Assembly: GCF_003990725.2 (NCBI RefSeq)
Contig: NZ_CP030064.1
Location: 248,001-312,000 of the forward strand
DNA: 64,000 nt
Direction: 5' to 3'
DNA from: Halorubrum sp. PV6
Lineage (GTDB): Archaea; Halobacteriota; Halobacteria; Halobacteriales; Haloferacaceae
This document shows positions 5,444-58,037 of the stretch, piece by piece (within the stretch, counting starts at the first letter, position 1; each line of letters begins with the position of its first letter). The notes beneath the pieces are model-generated. The model was not told where the DNA came from. It saw nothing but the letters and a program-made list of their open reading frames with translations, and did not search any database. The translations under genes were made by a program, and so were the position numbers.

Positions 5444-6750
5444 AGGGGGTCGTCCTCGGCGGGGTGCGCTCCGGGGTCGGCAAGACCGTCGCGACGCTCG
5501 CGGCGATCCGCGCGCTCGACGGCGCCGGGCGCGCAGTTCAGCCCGCGAAGGCCGGGCCCGACTTCATCGACCCGAGCCACCACGAACGCGTCGCGGGGCG
5601 CCCCTCGCGAACGCTCGACCTGTGGCTGCAGGGGGCGGACGGGCTCCGCCGGAACTACGCCCGCGGCGAGGGCGACGTCTGCGTCGTCGAGGGCGTGATG
5701 GGGCTGTACGACGGCGACGGGTCGAGCACGGCGGCGGTCGCCGAGGCGCTCGATCTGCCGGTCGTGCTCGTCGTCGACGCGAGCGCGGGCATGGAGAGCG
5801 TCGCCGCGACCGCGCTCGGCTTCCGGGCGTACGCGGAGCGCGCCGGCCGCGACGTCGACGTCGCCGGCGTGATCGCTCAGCGCGCGCACGGCGGCCGCCA
5901 CGAGGACGGGATCCGCGACGCGCTCCCGGACGAACTGGCCTACGTCGGTCGGATCCCGCCGAACGACGAGCTCTCCGTCCCCGAGCGCCACCTCGGGCTC
6001 CACATGGGCGCGGAGTCGCCGGTGCCCGAGGACGCCCTCGACGCGGCCGCCGAGGGGCTCCGAACCGAGCGCCTGCTCGACATCGCGCGCGAGCCGACCG
6101 GCGTCCCCGAGCCGACCGAACGGGCGGAGCCGACCGGCGACGACCGCCCCCGCGTCGCGGTCGCCCGCGACGACGCCTTCCGGTTCCTGTATCCCGCGAC
6201 CGTCGAGCGCCTGCGCGAGCGCGCGGTCGTCGAGCCGTTCGCGCCGACCGCGGGCGACCCGCTCCCGCCCTCTGACGGCGTCTATCTCCCCGGCGGCTAT
6301 CCGGAACTCCACGCCGCCGACCTCGCTCGGGGCCCGGCGCTCGACGACCTCGCAGCCGCGGCCGCCGAGGGCGTCCCGGTCCTCGGCGAGTGCGGCGGGC
6401 TGATGGCGCTCGCCGAGTCGCTGACGACCGCCGAGGGCGAGACGCACGCGATGGCTGGCGTCCTGCCGGCCGACGTGCGCATGCGCGACCGGTACCAGGC
6501 GCTCGATCACGTCGAACTGCGGGCGCGGCGGGACGCCCCGACTGCTGTGACGGGCGAGACCCTGCGGGGTCACGAGTTCCACTACTCGACCACGGATGTC
6601 GCCAGCGACGCGCGGTTCGCCTTCGACGTGGAGCGGGGGACCGGGATCGACGGCGACCGCGAGGGACTGATCGAACACCGAACGCTCGGAACGTACTGTC
6701 ACGTCCACCCGGAGAGCGGGGCGTTCGACGCGTTCCTCGACGGGCTGTGA
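5440..6750 (+). CDS. cbiA: Cobyrinate a,c-diamide synthase
   Basis: 436 residues; the GTG start overlaps the cobT stop. The enzyme amidates the a and c side chains of (co)byrinate using glutamine and ATP. The N-terminal P-loop amidoligase domain starts with [10 protein letters not shown], then [12 protein letters not shown] and [11 protein letters not shown], all typical of CbiA/CobB. The C-terminal class I glutaminase-like domain has the nucleophile motif GECGGLMAL (Cys at about nt 6391) and the late GHEFHYS and CHVHPES motifs. The length is normal for the family. It is coupled downstream to cbiB by another GTGA overlap. Confidence 0.93.
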
Positions 6751-17209: not shown

Positions 17210-18052
17210 ATGGAGTACCTGGAGCGCCGGGTCGCACTGGTCGAAGGACGGCTGGAGTCCGTTATCGACGAGATCGAGCCCGACGAGCTGTCCGATGAGG
17301 TCGGCCACGTCGTTCTCGCCGGCGGCAAGCGCGTCCGCCCCGCCGTGACGATCCTCGCCTGCGAGGCGTTCGACGGCGACCCCGATTCGGCCGTCGACTT
17401 CGCGGCCGGGATCGAGTTCGTCCACAACGCGTCGCTCGTGATCGACGATATCATCGACCGCTCCGAGGTGCGACGCGGCACGCCCTCTGCGTGGTCCGAG
17501 TACGGCTACGGTCCGGCTATCATCGCCAGCGACGGCCTCCTCGGCGAGGCGTTCGCGCTCTTTTCGACCGAGCCGCGCGCGATGCGGACCGTCGCCGAGG
17601 CGATGGTGGAACTCGGCGAGGGCGAGGCCACGGAGCTCGCCGCCCGCCCGACGACCGAAGCCGAGTACATGGAGCTCGCGCGGCGGAAGACCGGCGCCCT
17701 GTTCCGGGCCGCCGCCGAACTCGGGGCGATCGCCGGCGGCGCCGACCCGCACGCCGTCGACGCCTTCGGGGAGTACGCCGAGCGCGTCGGCGTCGCCTTC
17801 CAGATGCGCGACGACGTCTTGGACGCGACCGCCGACGCCGACGACCTCGGGAAGCCGACCGGCCAGGACGCGGAGATGGATCGCCCCTCGGTGGTACAGG
17901 TCACCTCGCTCACGCCCGACGAGATAGACGAGCGCGCCCGCGAGCAGTCAGACCTCGCCTTAGCCGCGCTGGAGGAGGCCGACCCCCCGGAGACGGAGGC
18001 GATCGAGTACCTCCGCGACCTCGCCGAGTTCGTCGTCGTGCGCGAGCGGTGA
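17210..18052 (+). CDS. Polyprenyl (geranylgeranyl-type) diphosphate synthase
   Basis: 280 residues. A trans-isoprenyl diphosphate synthase that condenses IPP with allylic diphosphates. GGKRVRPAVTILACEAF holds the IPP-binding residues, SLVIDDIIDRSEVRRG the first Asp-rich motif (DDxxD) and VAFQMRDDVLDATADADDLG the second. It likely supplies C20 or longer chains for archaeal lipids or quinones. Chain length cannot be read with confidence from the residues before the first motif (GIEFVHNASL). It lies downstream of npdG in the same direction with a 54-bp gap. Confidence 0.9.
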   Translation: MEYLERRVALVEGRLESVIDEIEPDELSDEVGHVVLAGGKRVRPAVTILACEAFDGDPDSAVDFAAGIEFVHNASLVIDDIIDRSEVRRGTPSAWSEYGYGPAIIASDGLLGEAFALFSTEPRAMRTVAEAMVELGEGEATELAARPTTEAEYMELARRKTGALFRAAAELGAIAGGADPHAVDAFGEYAERVGVAFQMRDDVLDATADADDLGKPTGQDAEMDRPSVVQVTSLTPDEIDERAREQSDLALAALEEADPPETEAIEYLRDLAEFVVVRER

Positions 18053-52670: not shown

Positions 52671-53375
52671 TTATGTAAGCGCCTGGACGAGGTCGGACCC
52701 CTCAACGTACGGAATTCCGCGTCGGTGCGCGTACGCCTCGGCGTCGGCGGGCGCCAGCGCGTCGCCCGTCTCGTCGTCGAGCATCTCACAGACCACGGCG
52801 GCGGGGGCGGCGCCGACCGCCTCGGCCATCGCGAGCCCGAGCTCCGTGTGGCCGGTCCGGCCCGCGAGCCCGTCGCGGTCGCCTCGCAGGACGTGCACGT
52901 GGCCGGGTGCGCGGAACTCCGACGCGAAGGCCTCCGGGCCGTACCCCGCGGGGTCGTCGTCGACGGCCGCGGCCGCGCCCGCGAGTTCCACGATGGTCCG
53001 CGCGCGGTCCGCGTCGGTGATCCCCGTGAACGTCTCGCGGTGGTTCACGGGCAGCGAGAACGAGGAGCGGTCGTCGTAGTCTGGGTCGTCGTCGACCGCG
53101 GGGTGATCGAGCGCGTCGGCGAGGAACGGCAGGTCGAACGCGTCGCCGACCGCGTCGCTCACCGCCACGCAGATCAGCCCGCCCGCGTCGTTGCGCATGT
53201 GCGCGACGGCCGCCTCGTCGACGGCGCCGGCCGGATACACGATGTCGGTCTCGCCCTCGCGGTCGGCGAAGTCGTGGACGCAGACCGGGTCGCCGGCGCG
53301 GAACGCCTCCAGCGCTCGCGTGACCGAGTCGGCGTCCGCGCTCGCCCCGTCGTCGCCGTCGGTGTCGGCGCGCAT
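52671..53375 (-). CDS. ribB: 3,4-dihydroxy-2-butanone-4-phosphate synthase
   Basis: 234 residues. It converts ribulose 5-phosphate to the four-carbon unit of riboflavin. The acidic loop FADREGETDIVYPAGAVDEA holds the metal and substrate binding Glu and Asp, and GLAGRTGHTELGLAMAEAVG carries the late His and Glu. AHMRNDAGGLICVAVS is also family-like. It is the usual archaeal single-domain form without GTP cyclohydrolase II. Its ATG overlaps the ribK stop (TGATG), so the two genes are one unit. Confidence 0.93.
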   Translation of the reverse strand: MRADTDGDDGASADADSVTRALEAFRAGDPVCVHDFADREGETDIVYPAGAVDEAAVAHMRNDAGGLICVAVSDAVGDAFDLPFLADALDHPAVDDDPDYDDRSSFSLPVNHRETFTGITDADRARTIVELAGAAAAVDDDPAGYGPEAFASEFRAPGHVHVLRGDRDGLAGRTGHTELGLAMAEAVGAAPAAVVCEMLDDETGDALAPADAEAYAHRRGIPYVEGSDLVQALT

Positions 53376-54127
53376 CAGGCGACCTCCGTCTCCGGCTCCC
53401 CCTGCTCGTCGGGGGCGTCCGCGCGGCTCGTGGCGGTCACTCTGACCTCCACCGCGTCGCCGTCATCGAGGTCGAGCACGTCGCGGAGCCGCTCCGGGGC
53501 GATCAGTTCGAGCTGGTCGTCGTCGTGGTGGGTCCGGTCCGGGACGATGGCGTGGACCGTCTCGTAGCGCTCCTCGCCCGCGACGAGCGTGACGCCGTAA
53601 CAGGACGCCGCGCCGTAGGTGCGGTCGTCGCCTTCCCACGCGTCGATGGGGACCGCGTCGATGCCGGCCATCTCGCCGCGCCGGCGGACGCTCTCCGCGG
53701 CGAGGTCCACGTTGAGCGTCCCGGCGAACGGCTCGTAGCCGAGTCGCGCCCGGAACTGCTCGGCGTAGCCGGGGAGGGTGATGTAGTGGCGGCCCTCGCC
53801 CATGCCGCCGGTGACCGCGCCGCGGAGGACGAGCTCCACGTCACGCTCGAACAGCCGGCGGTAGTCGGCGTACTCGCCGCGGAGGGCGGCCTCGCCCGCG
53901 TCGGTGACGCGGACCCACTGGCCGTCGCTCACCACGTCGCGCTCGATGAACCCCGCCGCTTCGAGCGTTTGGAGCCGCCGCGAGGCGGTTTGGGTCGAGG
54001 CGTCGAGCCGGTCGCCGAGCGCCGCACACGACACCTTCGTTTCGGTCAGGCCGCCGACGAGCCCGACGTGTTTCAGGGCCGCGATGGCGGCCGGGTCGGG
54101 ATCCGTCGCTGCCGTCGCTTCTGCCAT
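53375..54127 (-). CDS. ribK: CTP-dependent riboflavin kinase with N-terminal HTH (RbkR-like)
   Basis: 250 residues from the ATG at 54127; an earlier start at 54196 would cross the presumed promoter. The first 85 residues are a winged helix ([33 protein letters not shown]). The rest is the archaeal DUF120 riboflavin kinase: [40 protein letters not shown] and [18 protein letters not shown]. Archaeal proteins with this fusion (RbkR) both make FMN and regulate riboflavin genes. The coupling to ribB fits a feedback-controlled operon. Confidence 0.9.
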
Positions 54128-54183
54128 ACGCAAAACTGGGTCGTCCGCACGCAAAAGGGTAACGGATGTGAGATGCGTTCCAG

Positions 54184-54200
54184 AAACGTTATTCACGTTT
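54184..54200. promoter_or_regulatory. Inverted repeat upstream of ribK-ribB
   Basis: AAACGT (54184-54189) and ACGTTT (54195-54200) form a perfect 6-bp inverted repeat with a 5-nt spacer, 57-73 nt upstream of the ribK ATG. The octamer ACGCAAAA also occurs twice between it and the start. A self-regulation site for the HTH of RbkR is a reasonable guess. Confidence 0.4.
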
Positions 54201-54377: not shown

Positions 54378-54449
54378 GGGCTCGTAGATCAGCGGCAGAT
54401 CGCTTCCTTCGCAAGGAAGAGGCCCGGGGTTCAAATCCCCGCGAGTCCA
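54378..54449 (+). tRNA. tRNA-Ala, anticodon CGC
   Basis: 72 nt, folding as a full cloverleaf. The acceptor stem is GGGCTCG with CGAGTCC, including the G3-U70 pair that identifies alanine tRNAs. The D arm is GATC with GATC, the anticodon arm CTTCC-TTCGCAA-GGAAG (anticodon CGC, reading GCG), and the T arm CGGGG-TTCAAAT-CCCCG. No intron and no encoded CCA. Its 3' end is the left attachment site of the insertion that follows. Confidence 0.95.
54436..54449 (+). repeat. Attachment site (left), inside tRNA-Ala
   Basis: TCCCCGCGAGTCCA, the last 14 nt of the tRNA, recurs at 56397-56410. The match extends less perfectly leftward (GGTTCAAA on both sides, with a 2-nt difference at 56395-56396). A tRNA 3' end repeated in the same direction is the classic mark of tyrosine-recombinase integration. 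Confidence 0.8.
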
Positions 54450-54606
54450 TTCACTTCGTGAAGCCGCCGAATGACTGTATTATTGACTTAGCTGGTCTCC
54501 TGCTTCACCCCCGTGTTCTAGCTCTTCTATTGAATACCTATGATTTGGTCTAACGCCCGAGCTTACCGCCAACATTTGATTCAGTAGAGAGGTTATGGGT
54601 GGGTAA

Positions 54607-54777
54607 TCATGCGTTTTCCAGAAAGTCTCCAACGGTGACGACACGGCAGCCCTCTATTATCCGCCCTCTTACGACGAACCGTTTGTACACTTGTGGTCTG
54701 ACCGACAGAGCTACTGAAACAAACTCTATTACTGGTGCATCTCGCACTGGAGTTAACTTATATACTAGATAGCTCAC
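54607..54777 (-). CDS. Possible small ORF in the tRNA-Ala element
   Basis: 56 residues from a GTG at 54777, or 83 from an ATG at 54858 that would overlap the divergent gene's start. The C-terminal part (PQVYKRFVVRGRIIEGCRVV and TVGDFLENA) reads like the end of a globular protein. It might be a real small gene or the 3' remnant of an older one. The rest of 54450-54829 shows only AT-rich DNA with a TTATATACTAG box near 54758. Confidence 0.3.
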   Translation of the reverse strand: MSYLVYKLTPVRDAPVIEFVSVALSVRPQVYKRFVVRGRIIEGCRVVTVGDFLENA

Positions 54778-54829
54778 CGTCACAAGGTATTTGCAAGAGT
54801 GGTGAAATAGATAAATTGACGAGTAGAAT

Positions 54830-55537
54830 ATGATTGTGGATGTCTGGAGTATCGTCACAACCTCCCTTTTCAGAATAGTTGCATCCCTGCTCGCAACGGG
54901 TTTGGTTGTATTCTTCCGACACAGAATTTGGCGGTCTATTCTCCGAGGCTATCACTACCTCTTCGATACTCGGGCTAGTATCAAGATCCGTCGAATTGAT
55001 CGATATGAGTCTGACCCTTCCAAGACTCCAGATCACAGCGTTTTCGAGGATCTGAAGAGTAACGTAGACGGGCTTAAAATCGAAGGCATTTCTGAGGATA
55101 AAATCAGGATCACTGTACCCGAAATCAACGCTACGATCGATGTCTTGGTTGAGAGAGACTTAGATATAGATCCCAGTATGGCTGCTCTCCCTGGTCAGGT
55201 AGGCGAGAAGGTGGGCTACAAGGTTATTGTAGAAACAGAGCCTTCAATGAGCTTTGGATACCGGACATACGATGACCTGAGCAAATTTGAGTATATCTCA
55301 GATAACATTGCTAAACAGGTCGGAAAAACATGTTTTGCTGGTGATGATCCGACAGAGTCATTTGTAACTGGGGAATTAGACACCAGAGTTCCGATCAAAC
55401 GTCATGATGTCAATGACCGCGAACTAGGAATGCGTGCTAGGTTTGAGGATTCTACAATGACATTTAACCTGGATAATCCGAACCAACTCACACGGGGGAT
55501 TCGGCGGTACTTCCAACCGCTCACCTTGCGTAACTGA
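54830..55537 (+). CDS. Orphan membrane-anchored protein of the tRNA-Ala element
   Basis: 235 residues. One N-terminal helix (SLFRIVASLLATGLVVFF) followed by RHRIWRSI suggests the soluble part is cytoplasmic. That part is mixed alpha/beta with Asp/Glu/Lys (KIRRIDRYESDPSKTPDHSV and KIRITVPEINATIDVLVERD), no obvious catalytic or metal motif, and an Arg/Lys-rich end. I do not recognise a family. Its 3' end overlaps the convergent gene by 17 bp, and its base composition is unlike that of the chromosome. Confidence 0.78.
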   Translation: MIVDVWSIVTTSLFRIVASLLATGLVVFFRHRIWRSILRGYHYLFDTRASIKIRRIDRYESDPSKTPDHSVFEDLKSNVDGLKIEGISEDKIRITVPEINATIDVLVERDLDIDPSMAALPGQVGEKVGYKVIVETEPSMSFGYRTYDDLSKFEYISDNIAKQVGKTCFAGDDPTESFVTGELDTRVPIKRHDVNDRELGMRARFEDSTMTFNLDNPNQLTRGIRRYFQPLTLRN

Positions 55538-56210
55538 GCATCACGTCGTTGACGAAGTTTAGGTAGGCTTCCTGTGGATAGGTACCGGGAGAAACAACCT
55601 GCACCCAACCGTCGCGGCCAATTTTGAGCTTAAGAGAGTCTCCATTGTAATCGATCTTTGGTCCGATTACGCTTTTATTTGAAGTTCGCTTAAACGGGTC
55701 GCCCATCTCCACATCGTTCTCTATGTCCTCACCGTAGAGCAGACCGGACTCGACTCGTCCTGATCGTTCGTCAAAGCCCCCTACCCAGTGGCCATCAAAA
55801 TCAGCCAATATTTGATGTAGATCAAATCTAATTCGTTTGATATTCATGCCAATTGCATCAGCAATCAGATCAAAAGCGAATGTCCCACCTGAGTTTTTGA
55901 CGACAATTAGGTCATCACTGTCTGGGCGCGAAACAGCCCAGAAGTCTGTAACATGCCATTCTGGCTCATGAGAGTTCGTTATACGAATTTCTCCAGAGCT
56001 GTCCACGTTTGGCGTTTCTTTCCTTTCCAGCTGTTGCTCCGCGGCTTGCCCTTGGTGGGCGATTGAGTTTTGCTGGAGGCTTATCAACTCATGACGTGTA
56101 TTAATTACGGAGTCCAGCTTGAACTCCTGTTTCTGCGTTGTATCTTTATGATCGGAGATCTTGCTTACATCGCCTGCCGTGGTGGCGATGTACCCAGTAG
56201 TGAACGTCAT
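55521..56210 (-). CDS. Orphan soluble protein of the tRNA-Ala element
   Basis: 229 residues, no signal or membrane helix. Residues 1-70 are polar and Gln-rich and may be helical (QQNSIAHQGQAAEQQLERKE). Residues 75-229 look like a compact beta-rich domain: HEPEWHVTDFWAVSRPDSDD, RFDLHQILADFDGHWVGGFD and DSLKLKIGRDGWVQVVSPGT. No known enzyme motif. It runs toward the gene at 54830 and overlaps its end by 17 bp. An AT-rich leader (56211-56300) could hold its promoter. Confidence 0.78.
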   Translation of the reverse strand: MTFTTGYIATTAGDVSKISDHKDTTQKQEFKLDSVINTRHELISLQQNSIAHQGQAAEQQLERKETPNVDSSGEIRITNSHEPEWHVTDFWAVSRPDSDDLIVVKNSGGTFAFDLIADAIGMNIKRIRFDLHQILADFDGHWVGGFDERSGRVESGLLYGEDIENDVEMGDPFKRTSNKSVIGPKIDYNGDSLKLKIGRDGWVQVVSPGTYPQEAYLNFVNDVMLSYAR

Positions 56211-56327
56211 TTATAGTGTAAATGTAACTGTGTGACTTAGTAATAATTCTGACGACAAGTTGTATATTGGCGTACTCAATAATTATAAATTAAATTATAT
56301 TTCTTCACCGGTGCGTCGGTGTTGAGT
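56211..56327. other. AT-rich leader of the element's right end
   Basis: The stretch is dominated by A and T (AATTATAAATTAAATTATAT near 56280-56300) and should contain the promoter of the minus-strand gene at 56210. No ORF or RNA is recognisable. Confidence 0.4.
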
Positions 56328-56398
56328 GATGTTTGAACCCTGCCAGCCGCGCGCAGCGAACACCGTGAGCGAGTACGTCTGGCTCTGGTTCAAACATC
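56328..56398. repeat. Inverted repeat next to the right attachment site
   Basis: GATGTTTGAACC (56328-56339) and GGTTCAAACATC (56387-56398) are perfect 12-bp inverted copies with 47 nt between. The right arm overlaps the first 2 nt of the attachment copy. The arms resemble the T arm of a tRNA (GGTTCAAA), so the left arm may be a tRNA piece in the opposite direction. It could form a long hairpin at the element boundary. Confidence 0.7.
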
Positions 56399-56410
56399 CC
56401 CGCGAGTCCA
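56397..56410 (+). repeat. Attachment site (right), copy of the tRNA-Ala 3' end
   Basis: TCCCCGCGAGTCCA repeats 54436-54449 exactly. To its right normal haloarchaeal base composition returns within about 10 nt, which places the junction here. Confidence 0.8.
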
Positions 56411-56500: not shown

Positions 56501-56635
56501 ATGAGCGTCTCTGAAATCCTCGAAGGAGAGAACCTCTCGCACCGGCAGATGGGCGTGATAATGGTCGGGTGGATACTGCTGGTCTCCGTCGTCGCCGTCG
56601 GTCTGCTGTGGTACACGGCCGTCAACTTCGTCTGA
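56501..56635 (+). CDS. Small single-helix membrane protein
   Basis: 44 residues with TTAAATA at 56472-56478 as a well-placed promoter. The N terminus is polar (MSVSEILEGENLSHRQMG), then one helix VIMVGWILLVSVVAVGLLWY and a short tail. I cannot name it, but its composition and promoter look like a true haloarchaeal gene. It lies outside the integrated element. Confidence 0.65.
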   Translation: MSVSEILEGENLSHRQMGVIMVGWILLVSVVAVGLLWYTAVNFV

Positions 56636-56735
56636 TCGGTGCGTCGCGGCCCGCGACCGACTCGCTGGTCGTCGCCGCAGTCGAAGCGCCTGCTGCGACG
56701 CGGAGCGCCATCGGCCCGTGCTGCGCGTCGGTCGC

Positions 56736-58037
56736 TCAGACGGTGTGTTTCGCTTCTTCGGGGTCGTCGACGACCTCGACGCCGCGGTTGTTGACGGCGT
56801 GGGGGTCAAGTCCGACCTCCTGGAGGAACTGCTTGTAGAGCCGTTCCGCCGTCTCGCCGTCCTTTTGCTTGTCGCTCGCGTGATCGCAGAGTTCGACGAG
56901 CGTCTCCGGCACGTCGTTTTCGTGGACGATCCAGTGGTTGATCGTGTCCGAGAGCCGCCGGATGGGCGACGTGAAGTGCCCGTAGATGTCGAAGTTGAGC
57001 GCGTGGTGGCCCCCGAACGGGTCGTTCATGTACTTCGCGCGCGGCATGACCTTCAGGACGGCGCGCTGGATCTTGTTCAGCTGGCGACCGGGCGACTCCT
57101 CTAAGGCGGCGTTGACGGCCTTCCGCGGGTCGTCGCCCCACGCGTCGCCGGGGATGGACACCGAGTCGAGCTCCTGGATCTCTTTTAAGGCCTCGTTCCA
57201 CTGGTCGGGGGTCGGCTGCGGGTGGACGCGGTACATCGCCTCGACGCCGCGGTCCCACATCAGGGTGTGCGTGACCGCCTTGTTCGCCTTCAGCATCGAC
57301 TCCTCGATGATGGTGTGTGCGCGGTCCCGGCGGGGGTTCAACACGAGCGACCCGTCTTCCTTGCGCTGCTCGTGCATCCGGTCGGCGAGCTCGAAGGCGA
57401 GTTCGTTCTCCTCGCCGAGCGGGAGCGAGGGGTCTTCGAGCCGCTCTTCGCACTGCTTGTAGGTGAGCCGCTCGTCCGAGTTGATGACGGATTTATAAAT
57501 ATCGATGTTCTCGAAGGAGAGCGTCTCGTCGTCGATCTCCATCTCGACGGTGTGCGCGAGCCGGTCCTCGTTCGGGACGAGCGAGCAGACGGTCTCCGCG
57601 AGCACCGGCGGGAGCATGTGGATGGTGTAGTCGGGGAGGTAGACGGTGTTGGACCGCTGGACCGCCTCTTCCCACATCGCGGTGTCGGGCGTGACGTAGT
57701 GGGTCACGTCGGCGATGTGGACCCACAGCCGGTAGGCGCCCTCCTCGCGTTCGATCGAGATGGCGTCGTCGAAGTCCTGCGCGTCGACCGGGTCCGTGGT
57801 CCACGTCGTCAGGTCCCGCAGGTCCGCGCGCTCGTCGATCTCCGACTCGATCTCGTCGTACACGCCCTCGGTCCGCGCCTCGGCCTCCCGGAGCACTTCG
57901 CTCGGGAACTCGTCGCGGATCTCGAACTCCTCGAACAGCTCCGTCCGCCTTTCGGCGAGGCGGTCGGCCAACTCCGGCGTGATCGTCACGGGACCTTGGT
58001 CCTCTGCGGACCCCGGTTTCGGCTCGTCGTCTGACAT
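56736..58037 (-). CDS. RNB-domain exoribonuclease (RNase R/II catalytic domain only)
   Basis: 433 residues. The catalytic domain is clear: TTDPVDAQDFDDAISIEREE holds the metal-binding Asp residues, then LWVHIADVTHYVTPDTAMWE and YLPDYTIHMLPPVLAETVCS, with HFTSPIRRLSDTINHWIVHE late in the domain. The cold-shock and S1 RNA-binding domains of bacterial RNase R are absent, as in other haloarchaeal members. It degrades RNA from the 3' end. It is a single gene; the 85-bp gap before the minus-strand gene at 58127 could hold its promoter. Confidence 0.93.
   Translation of the reverse strand: MSDDEPKPGSAEDQGPVTITPELADRLAERRTELFEEFEIRDEFPSEVLREAEARTEGVYDEIESEIDERADLRDLTTWTTDPVDAQDFDDAISIEREEGAYRLWVHIADVTHYVTPDTAMWEEAVQRSNTVYLPDYTIHMLPPVLAETVCSLVPNEDRLAHTVEMEIDDETLSFENIDIYKSVINSDERLTYKQCEERLEDPSLPLGEENELAFELADRMHEQRKEDGSLVLNPRRDRAHTIIEESMLKANKAVTHTLMWDRGVEAMYRVHPQPTPDQWNEALKEIQELDSVSIPGDAWGDDPRKAVNAALEESPGRQLNKIQRAVLKVMPRAKYMNDPFGGHHALNFDIYGHFTSPIRRLSDTINHWIVHENDVPETLVELCDHASDKQKDGETAERLYKQFLQEVGLDPHAVNNRGVEVVDDPEEAKHTV

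Follow-up and report, generated by a model that had tools for sequence, protein, structure and literature searches.

Archaeal viruses and plasmids integrate mainly at the 3' ends of tRNA genes, and a second copy of the tRNA end routinely serves as the mark by which islands are identified. The attachment (att) sites range from acceptor-only, as in SNJ2, up to larger ones (PMC8371274). In Haloquadratum walsbyi, a 6.7-kb region that extends from tRNA-Thr to a partial copy of this tRNA, with no integrase nearby, was read as prophage-related (PMC3119063). Deletions between 22-bp and 43-bp partial tRNA repeats have also been reported in Haloquadratum, as have small mobile repeats that are short, palindromic and transposase-free, namely miniature inverted-repeat transposable elements (MITEs) and palindrome-associated transposable elements (PATEs) (PMC3119063). 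In Halorubrum ezzemoulense, one account describes "homeocassettes" and integrase islands that are low in G+C, lie near tRNAs and carry unknown and restriction-modification genes (PMC11078007). Here, we explored a 64,000-nucleotide stretch of Halorubrum sp. PV6 (NZ_CP030064.1, positions 248,001 to 312,000; hereafter the window), in which a 1.96-kb segment behind tRNA-Ala(CGC) carries two genes, A and B, and is bounded at its far side by a copy of the tRNA 3' end. We found that this copy is the tail of a hairpin that also occurs without any insert, and that this hairpin is a member of a host-resident family of Halobacteria.

As in archaeal elements that target tRNAs by means of tyrosine recombinases (SNJ2, pNOB8 and SSV types), foreign DNA lies directly 3' of an intact tRNA. 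Integrase-bearing islands occupy the same tRNA-Ala(CGC) in relatives, and the insert in the window displays variable occupancy, with empty sites, and a foreign composition. Unlike those elements, however, it has no integrase, and its far-end repeat belongs to a pre-existing hairpin. The H. walsbyi tRNA-Thr region is similarly integrase-less and enclosed between a tRNA and a partial copy, yet that copy spans 57 nt with 5 mismatches, whereas the copy in the window is a 22-nt tail folded into a hairpin. The islands of H. ezzemoulense are comparable in being low in G+C and close to tRNAs; neither the hairpin nor the A/B pair is described in the accessible part of that account (PMC11078007). Finally, the hairpin resembles the MITEs and PATEs of Haloquadratum in being a short, palindromic, transposase-free repeat of a haloarchaeon, but it lies downstream of tRNA genes, carries the end of its own tRNA and is found class-wide.

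Results

The tRNA-Ala(CGC) gene is intact (54378-54449, forward strand; ARAGORN; Rfam RF00005, 66.4 bits). Its 3' terminal 14 nt, TCCCCGCGAGTCCA (54436-54449), recur exactly, on the same strand, at 56397-56410 and nowhere else in the window, while the 3.04-Mb genome holds one further exact copy, inside tRNA-Ala(GGC). The likeness exceeds 14 nt: GGTTCAAATCCCCGCGAGTCCA (from 54428) corresponds to GGTTCAAA-CA-TCCCCGCGAGTCCA (from 56387) over 22 nt, with a 2-nt insertion. The second copy is the 3' tail of an 85-nt hairpin unit, displaced from its tRNA (56326-56410, forward strand; covariance model R1, 89.9 bits). An earlier note on this DNA had taken the repeat for an attachment site duplicated by integration, a claim that comparison does not support, given that a like hairpin unit stands behind the tRNA in insert-free relatives and behind other tRNAs throughout the class. 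Because the tail of the unit is present equally without the insert, the 14-nt repeat is poor evidence of att duplication.

The aligned copies form a single long hairpin, in which the right arm repeats the T-arm, the left arm is its reverse complement, an inner stem lies between the two and the acceptor 3' strand follows. In the window, the left arm GATGTTTGAACC (56328-56339, forward strand) and the right arm GGTTCAAACATC (56387-56398, forward strand), the latter followed by the copied acceptor 3' strand, enclose the inner stem GCCAG/CTGGC. The 2-nt insertion of the right arm breaks the identity with the tRNA, yet it is matched in the left arm (GATGTTTGAACC/GGTTCAAACATC). Among 120 distinct sequences, 96% of the pair cells are standard, against 24-40% in slid controls, and 21 of the 24 base pairs change on both sides in compensatory fashion; a structure-fitted alignment inflates the paired fraction but is by itself unable to produce the 308 compensatory cells observed. 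GU cells exceed AC cells by 73 to 27, which leans toward a single-strand fold on the tRNA strand, much of this excess coming from positions whose other side the tRNA copy fixes. Pairing between the left flank of the hairpin and the acceptor copy was also considered and is not claimed, the mean run (4.09) being above that of shuffled sequences (3.77) by a small amount. None of the Rfam 15 covariance models matches 56326-56410 at E up to 1. In place of the U run of an intrinsic terminator, the hairpin is followed by the acceptor copy and then CTTCCGC; T-rich stretches occur directly behind the tRNA in many relatives.

The family is widespread. When the stretch from tRNA to repeat served as query against 53 Halorubrum genomes, the tRNA was matched in every one, and the final 79 nt emerged as a separate recurrent repeat, found beside tRNA-Ala genes and elsewhere. 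With R1, the hairpin was detected in 52 of 53 Halorubrum genomes and in 131 of 147 Halobacteria genomes, representing 50 of 56 genera. A phylum-wide draw of 295 genomes returned 51 positives, all from Halobacteria (51 of the 53 drawn); in the genomes of the remaining classes of the phylum, about 240 in number, the hairpin was not found by R1 under stricter filters, which weak matches may escape. A same-strand tRNA lies upstream of 98 of 104 copies, at a median gap of 58 nt, and 23 isoacceptors are involved. Copies are, moreover, usually fitted to their neighbour: the longest exact match between the 3' part of the hairpin and the last 24 nt of its own tRNA has a median of 22 nt, and reaches at least 18 nt in 69 of 98 copies versus 5 of 8,568 pairings with other tRNAs. 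Copies stand in the window, at L006 1977-2060 and at the L104-L259 loci; the PV6 genome itself holds eight at E of at most 1e-3, and a second copy in it, behind tRNA-Gly(GCC), has arms and tail fitted to tRNA-Gly. In Natronorubrum bangense JCM 10635, an 828-kb plasmid record contains a hairpin, unannotated there, behind tRNA-Val(CAC). No description of the family was found in a literature search that covered few subscription papers, and it appears to be undescribed. As a separate observation, tandem short units (about 87 and 130 bp), all ending in the tRNA 3' end, occur in Halorubrum (L039 1115-1594, L044, L045, L167, L189); in Halorubrum sp. Atlit-26R such units behind tRNA-Ala(CGC) are repeated up to four times.

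The earlier note had proposed that relatives be compared for empty sites and other cargo, and both are found. In insert-free relatives the hairpin stands about 50-130 nt behind the tRNA, within the range of 30-150 nt that is normal for it. At tRNA-Ala(CGC), two genomes (G024, G022) have the hairpin only and two (G019, G004) have neither hairpin nor insert, the right flank being conserved as in the window in all four. The G019/G004 state looks like a loss in which the tRNA end recombined with the hairpin tail, as partial tRNA repeats are reported to do in Haloquadratum (PMC3119063). In G014, the site is filled by a 4.9-kb island with an integrase (PF00589, 1.2e-5), which ends in its own tRNA-end copy (6420-6449) and is followed by an intact hairpin (6497-6580). 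Similarly, a 17-kb island with an integrase-like gene in G047 has a tRNA-end copy at 17504-17560 and the hairpin at 17697-17780, and the end of a viral contig is a partial tRNA-Gly, with the hairpin outside, beyond it. The hairpin is a resident feature, and the gap that separates it from the tRNA is where islands enter. In 40 further Halorubrum loci, covered for 6 kb upstream, the distance from hairpin to tRNA is nearly always about 350 nt or less, and no cargo was seen in between. An arrangement like that of the window is found at tRNA-Ala(GGC) of G003 (L054 1406-3214), where a 1.8-kb two-gene insert, with neither integrase nor second tRNA end, separates tRNA and hairpin. Its genes encode a nucleotidyltransferase domain (PF01909, 9e-11; PADLOC candidate PDC-M05A, 6e-18) and a partner, possibly HEPN. 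This insert carries a candidate defence gene, and that of G047 a type IIG restriction enzyme. Independently, G043 has a second complete tRNA-Ala(CGC), with upstream sequence and a 140-nt trailer, beside a type I restriction gene (L048 5681-7098).

The insert in the window is foreign in composition. Its G+C is about 0.45-0.48, compared with 0.65-0.70 in the flanks, and the open reading frames (ORFs) of A and B have the lowest G+C at third codon positions (GC3) among the 45 long ORFs of the window (0.48 and 0.51; median 0.91). Neither ORF matches an integrase, and no other gene-sized candidate was identified in the segment; structural and replication hallmark genes of proviruses were likewise not found in the insert, A and B being its only genes. 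The A/B pair was not found at the tRNA-Ala(CGC) locus in 52 of 52 other Halorubrum genomes. The earlier description of an AT-rich, integrase-free foreign segment with two unknown genes, beyond which the tRNA end is repeated, is therefore borne out by tRNA prediction, exact matches, G+C and GC3, the integrase-negative result and the missing pair in relatives. On the left, 54450-54590 (forward strand) matches other Halorubrum and is either an island left end or a lineage-specific tRNA trailer: these approximately 140 nt are shared with the G014 integrase island, at its left end, and they also lie behind tRNA-Ala(CGC) in G005 and G034 and at the second tRNA-Ala copy of G043. On the right, AT-rich non-coding DNA (56211-56325) abuts the hairpin, with no second tRNA end and without the terminator-like stem-loop usual before the hairpin in the upstream sequences of relatives.

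ORF A (54830-55537, forward strand; 235 aa), of no known family, is predicted to carry a membrane helix at its N terminus and an alpha/beta domain after it, and ORF B (55521-56210, reverse strand; 229 aa) belongs to the phrog_18169 family, common in haloarchaeal genomes and often found beside integrases. The two are convergent, with a 17-nt overlap. Neither matched Pfam or NCBIfam, and B matched the unannotated phrog_18169 in PHROGs (4.8e-11). Against PADLOC models, the best match of A and B was Cas8b (E 0.036 over 51 residues), not significant; their profiles gave nothing useful against PDB sequences. Plasmid and phage records yielded distant relatives of B only, among them one in the tailed virus MFTV1 (27% identity, E 1e-3), and viral contigs searched with A, B and a B relative gave no match. 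An AlphaFold2 model of A (predicted local distance difference test, pLDDT, 73) has an N-terminal helix; its best Foldseek matches were TATA-binding protein-like, at template-modelling scores of only 0.23-0.30, and were not used. The model of B (pLDDT 39) was discarded. A and B are adjacent and convergent in four genomes (PV6, G036, G162 and G126). In G162 their surroundings are provirus-like, with an integrase (phrog_1, 2e-29) and, also nearby, a terminase-like gene (phrog_2666, 1e-72). In Halorubrum sp. Atlit-26R (G036) they stand alone just upstream of tRNA-Leu(CAA), with no integrase and no tRNA-end repeat at the left end; adjoining them, directly downstream of that tRNA, parts of its interior recur (L093 8340-8640). 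B alone is a wide family, present in 53 of 394 genomes and often beside integrases, winged helix-turn-helix regulators or a recurrent protein of about 350 aa. Elsewhere in the PV6 genome, an integrase-bearing element (L096 5807-9028; G000:C1:1339806-1343027) contains a distant homologue of B (27%), and the partner gene next to this homologue, encoding about 359 aa, recurs next to B homologues in other genera.

Both sides of the locus are conserved. The left flank (53375-54196, reverse strand), with a helix-turn-helix and RibK-like gene named from sequence without a family search, has 79-90% DNA identity beside tRNA-Ala(CGC) in most relatives whose locus was compared. The right flank (56501-58037), with a small membrane ORF (56501-56636, forward strand) and an RNase R-like gene (56736-58037, reverse strand), likewise named from sequence, has 76-93% identity at the corresponding place in relatives.

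Discussion

We consider it quite likely that the hairpin at 56326-56410 represents an undescribed structured element of Halobacteria: a 24-bp hairpin downstream of many tRNAs, with the 3' end of its own tRNA in the right arm and tail and the complement in the left arm. It would probably act as RNA in tRNA read-through transcripts, in termination, 3' processing or protection, and at the same time provide each such tRNA with a spare copy of the integration site.

For the insert, we favour, with a probability of roughly 0.65, a decayed, integrase-less island remnant 3' of tRNA-Ala(CGC), in which the resident hairpin, not a right attachment site (attR), supplies the 14-nt repeat, and A/B, a convergent pair that would travel between haloarchaeal mobile elements, was kept. 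On this reading, 54450 to approximately 56325 is horizontally acquired DNA; an island would have entered directly 3' of the tRNA and would have displaced the resident hairpin 1.9 kb from the tRNA. Its right end, with its own attR and the terminator-like stem, seems to have been lost, because the cargo abuts the hairpin with neither feature in between, while A/B would have been retained. If the tRNA end recombined with the hairpin tail, the DNA in between could be deleted without an integrase. Of the possibilities raised in the earlier note, the remains of a larger island thus fit best, whereas the reading of the repeat as an att site duplicated by integration is not supported, as the hairpin is resident without the insert. 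Several points weigh against an island remnant. No larger ancestral form with A/B and an integrase was found at tRNA-Ala(CGC); a native trailer could account for the left 140 nt, because G005 and G034 have this stretch without an island; the like anatomy in G003 makes right-end decay in two cases a little too convenient; and A/B could equally have arrived by homologous recombination.

The exact 14-nt repeat, and cargo lying directly against the hairpin here and in G003 with no other tRNA-end copy, would also suit a minimal element, in which hairpin and tRNA end are its own attR and the tRNA received a 1.96-kb circle through an integrase acting in trans. Mobilisation of such a satellite is possible, since the PV6 genome has three intact G014-type integrases (32-38% identity). 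Yet hairpins with a like tail lie behind tRNA-Ala(CGC) and many other tRNAs without an insert, the 40 further loci are free of intervening cargo, clean islands hold their own tRNA-end copy inside the hairpin boundary, and the hairpin has no matching phage record and few matches in plasmid collections, one of them tRNA-linked on a large replicon. We therefore regard a minimal element as unlikely. A little less likely again is that A/B is stand-alone cargo, brought by homologous or illegitimate recombination into the surroundings of a tRNA that are prone to it, with no island ever present here; the solitary pair upstream of tRNA-Leu(CAA) in G036 speaks for this, and the resemblance of the left 140 nt to the left end of an island that has an integrase and occupies the same tRNA speaks against it.

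Integron attC sites retain structure more than sequence and form a long imperfect hairpin at the recombination boundary. That the hairpin is an attC-like site at the 3' end of each cassette, with the tRNA end as anchor, is nonetheless very improbable: it is modular, conserved in structure and tolerant in sequence, tandem short units all end in the tRNA 3' end and cargo abuts it in two genomes, but cargo-bearing units are rare, nearly all hairpins lie directly behind a tRNA, no dedicated integrase, IntI or gene cassette array accompanies them, and the tail is copied from the adjacent tRNA.

An island remnant of this sort is of a known kind, integrase-poor, at a tRNA and with cargo of no known family. 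A/B constitutes a small conserved mobile gene pair, and relatives have restriction genes and candidate defence genes at the site that it occupies; for the pair, a part in conflicts with other elements is plausible. The hairpin family, however, is of greater importance than the insert and deserves to be pursued. Many tRNAs of Halobacteria are followed by a resident hairpin that repeats their 3' end, and such a repeat is an unsafe mark of an island in this class. If the hairpin is a functional RNA, it would constitute a class-wide, tRNA-specific structured element, directly testable in a model haloarchaeon.
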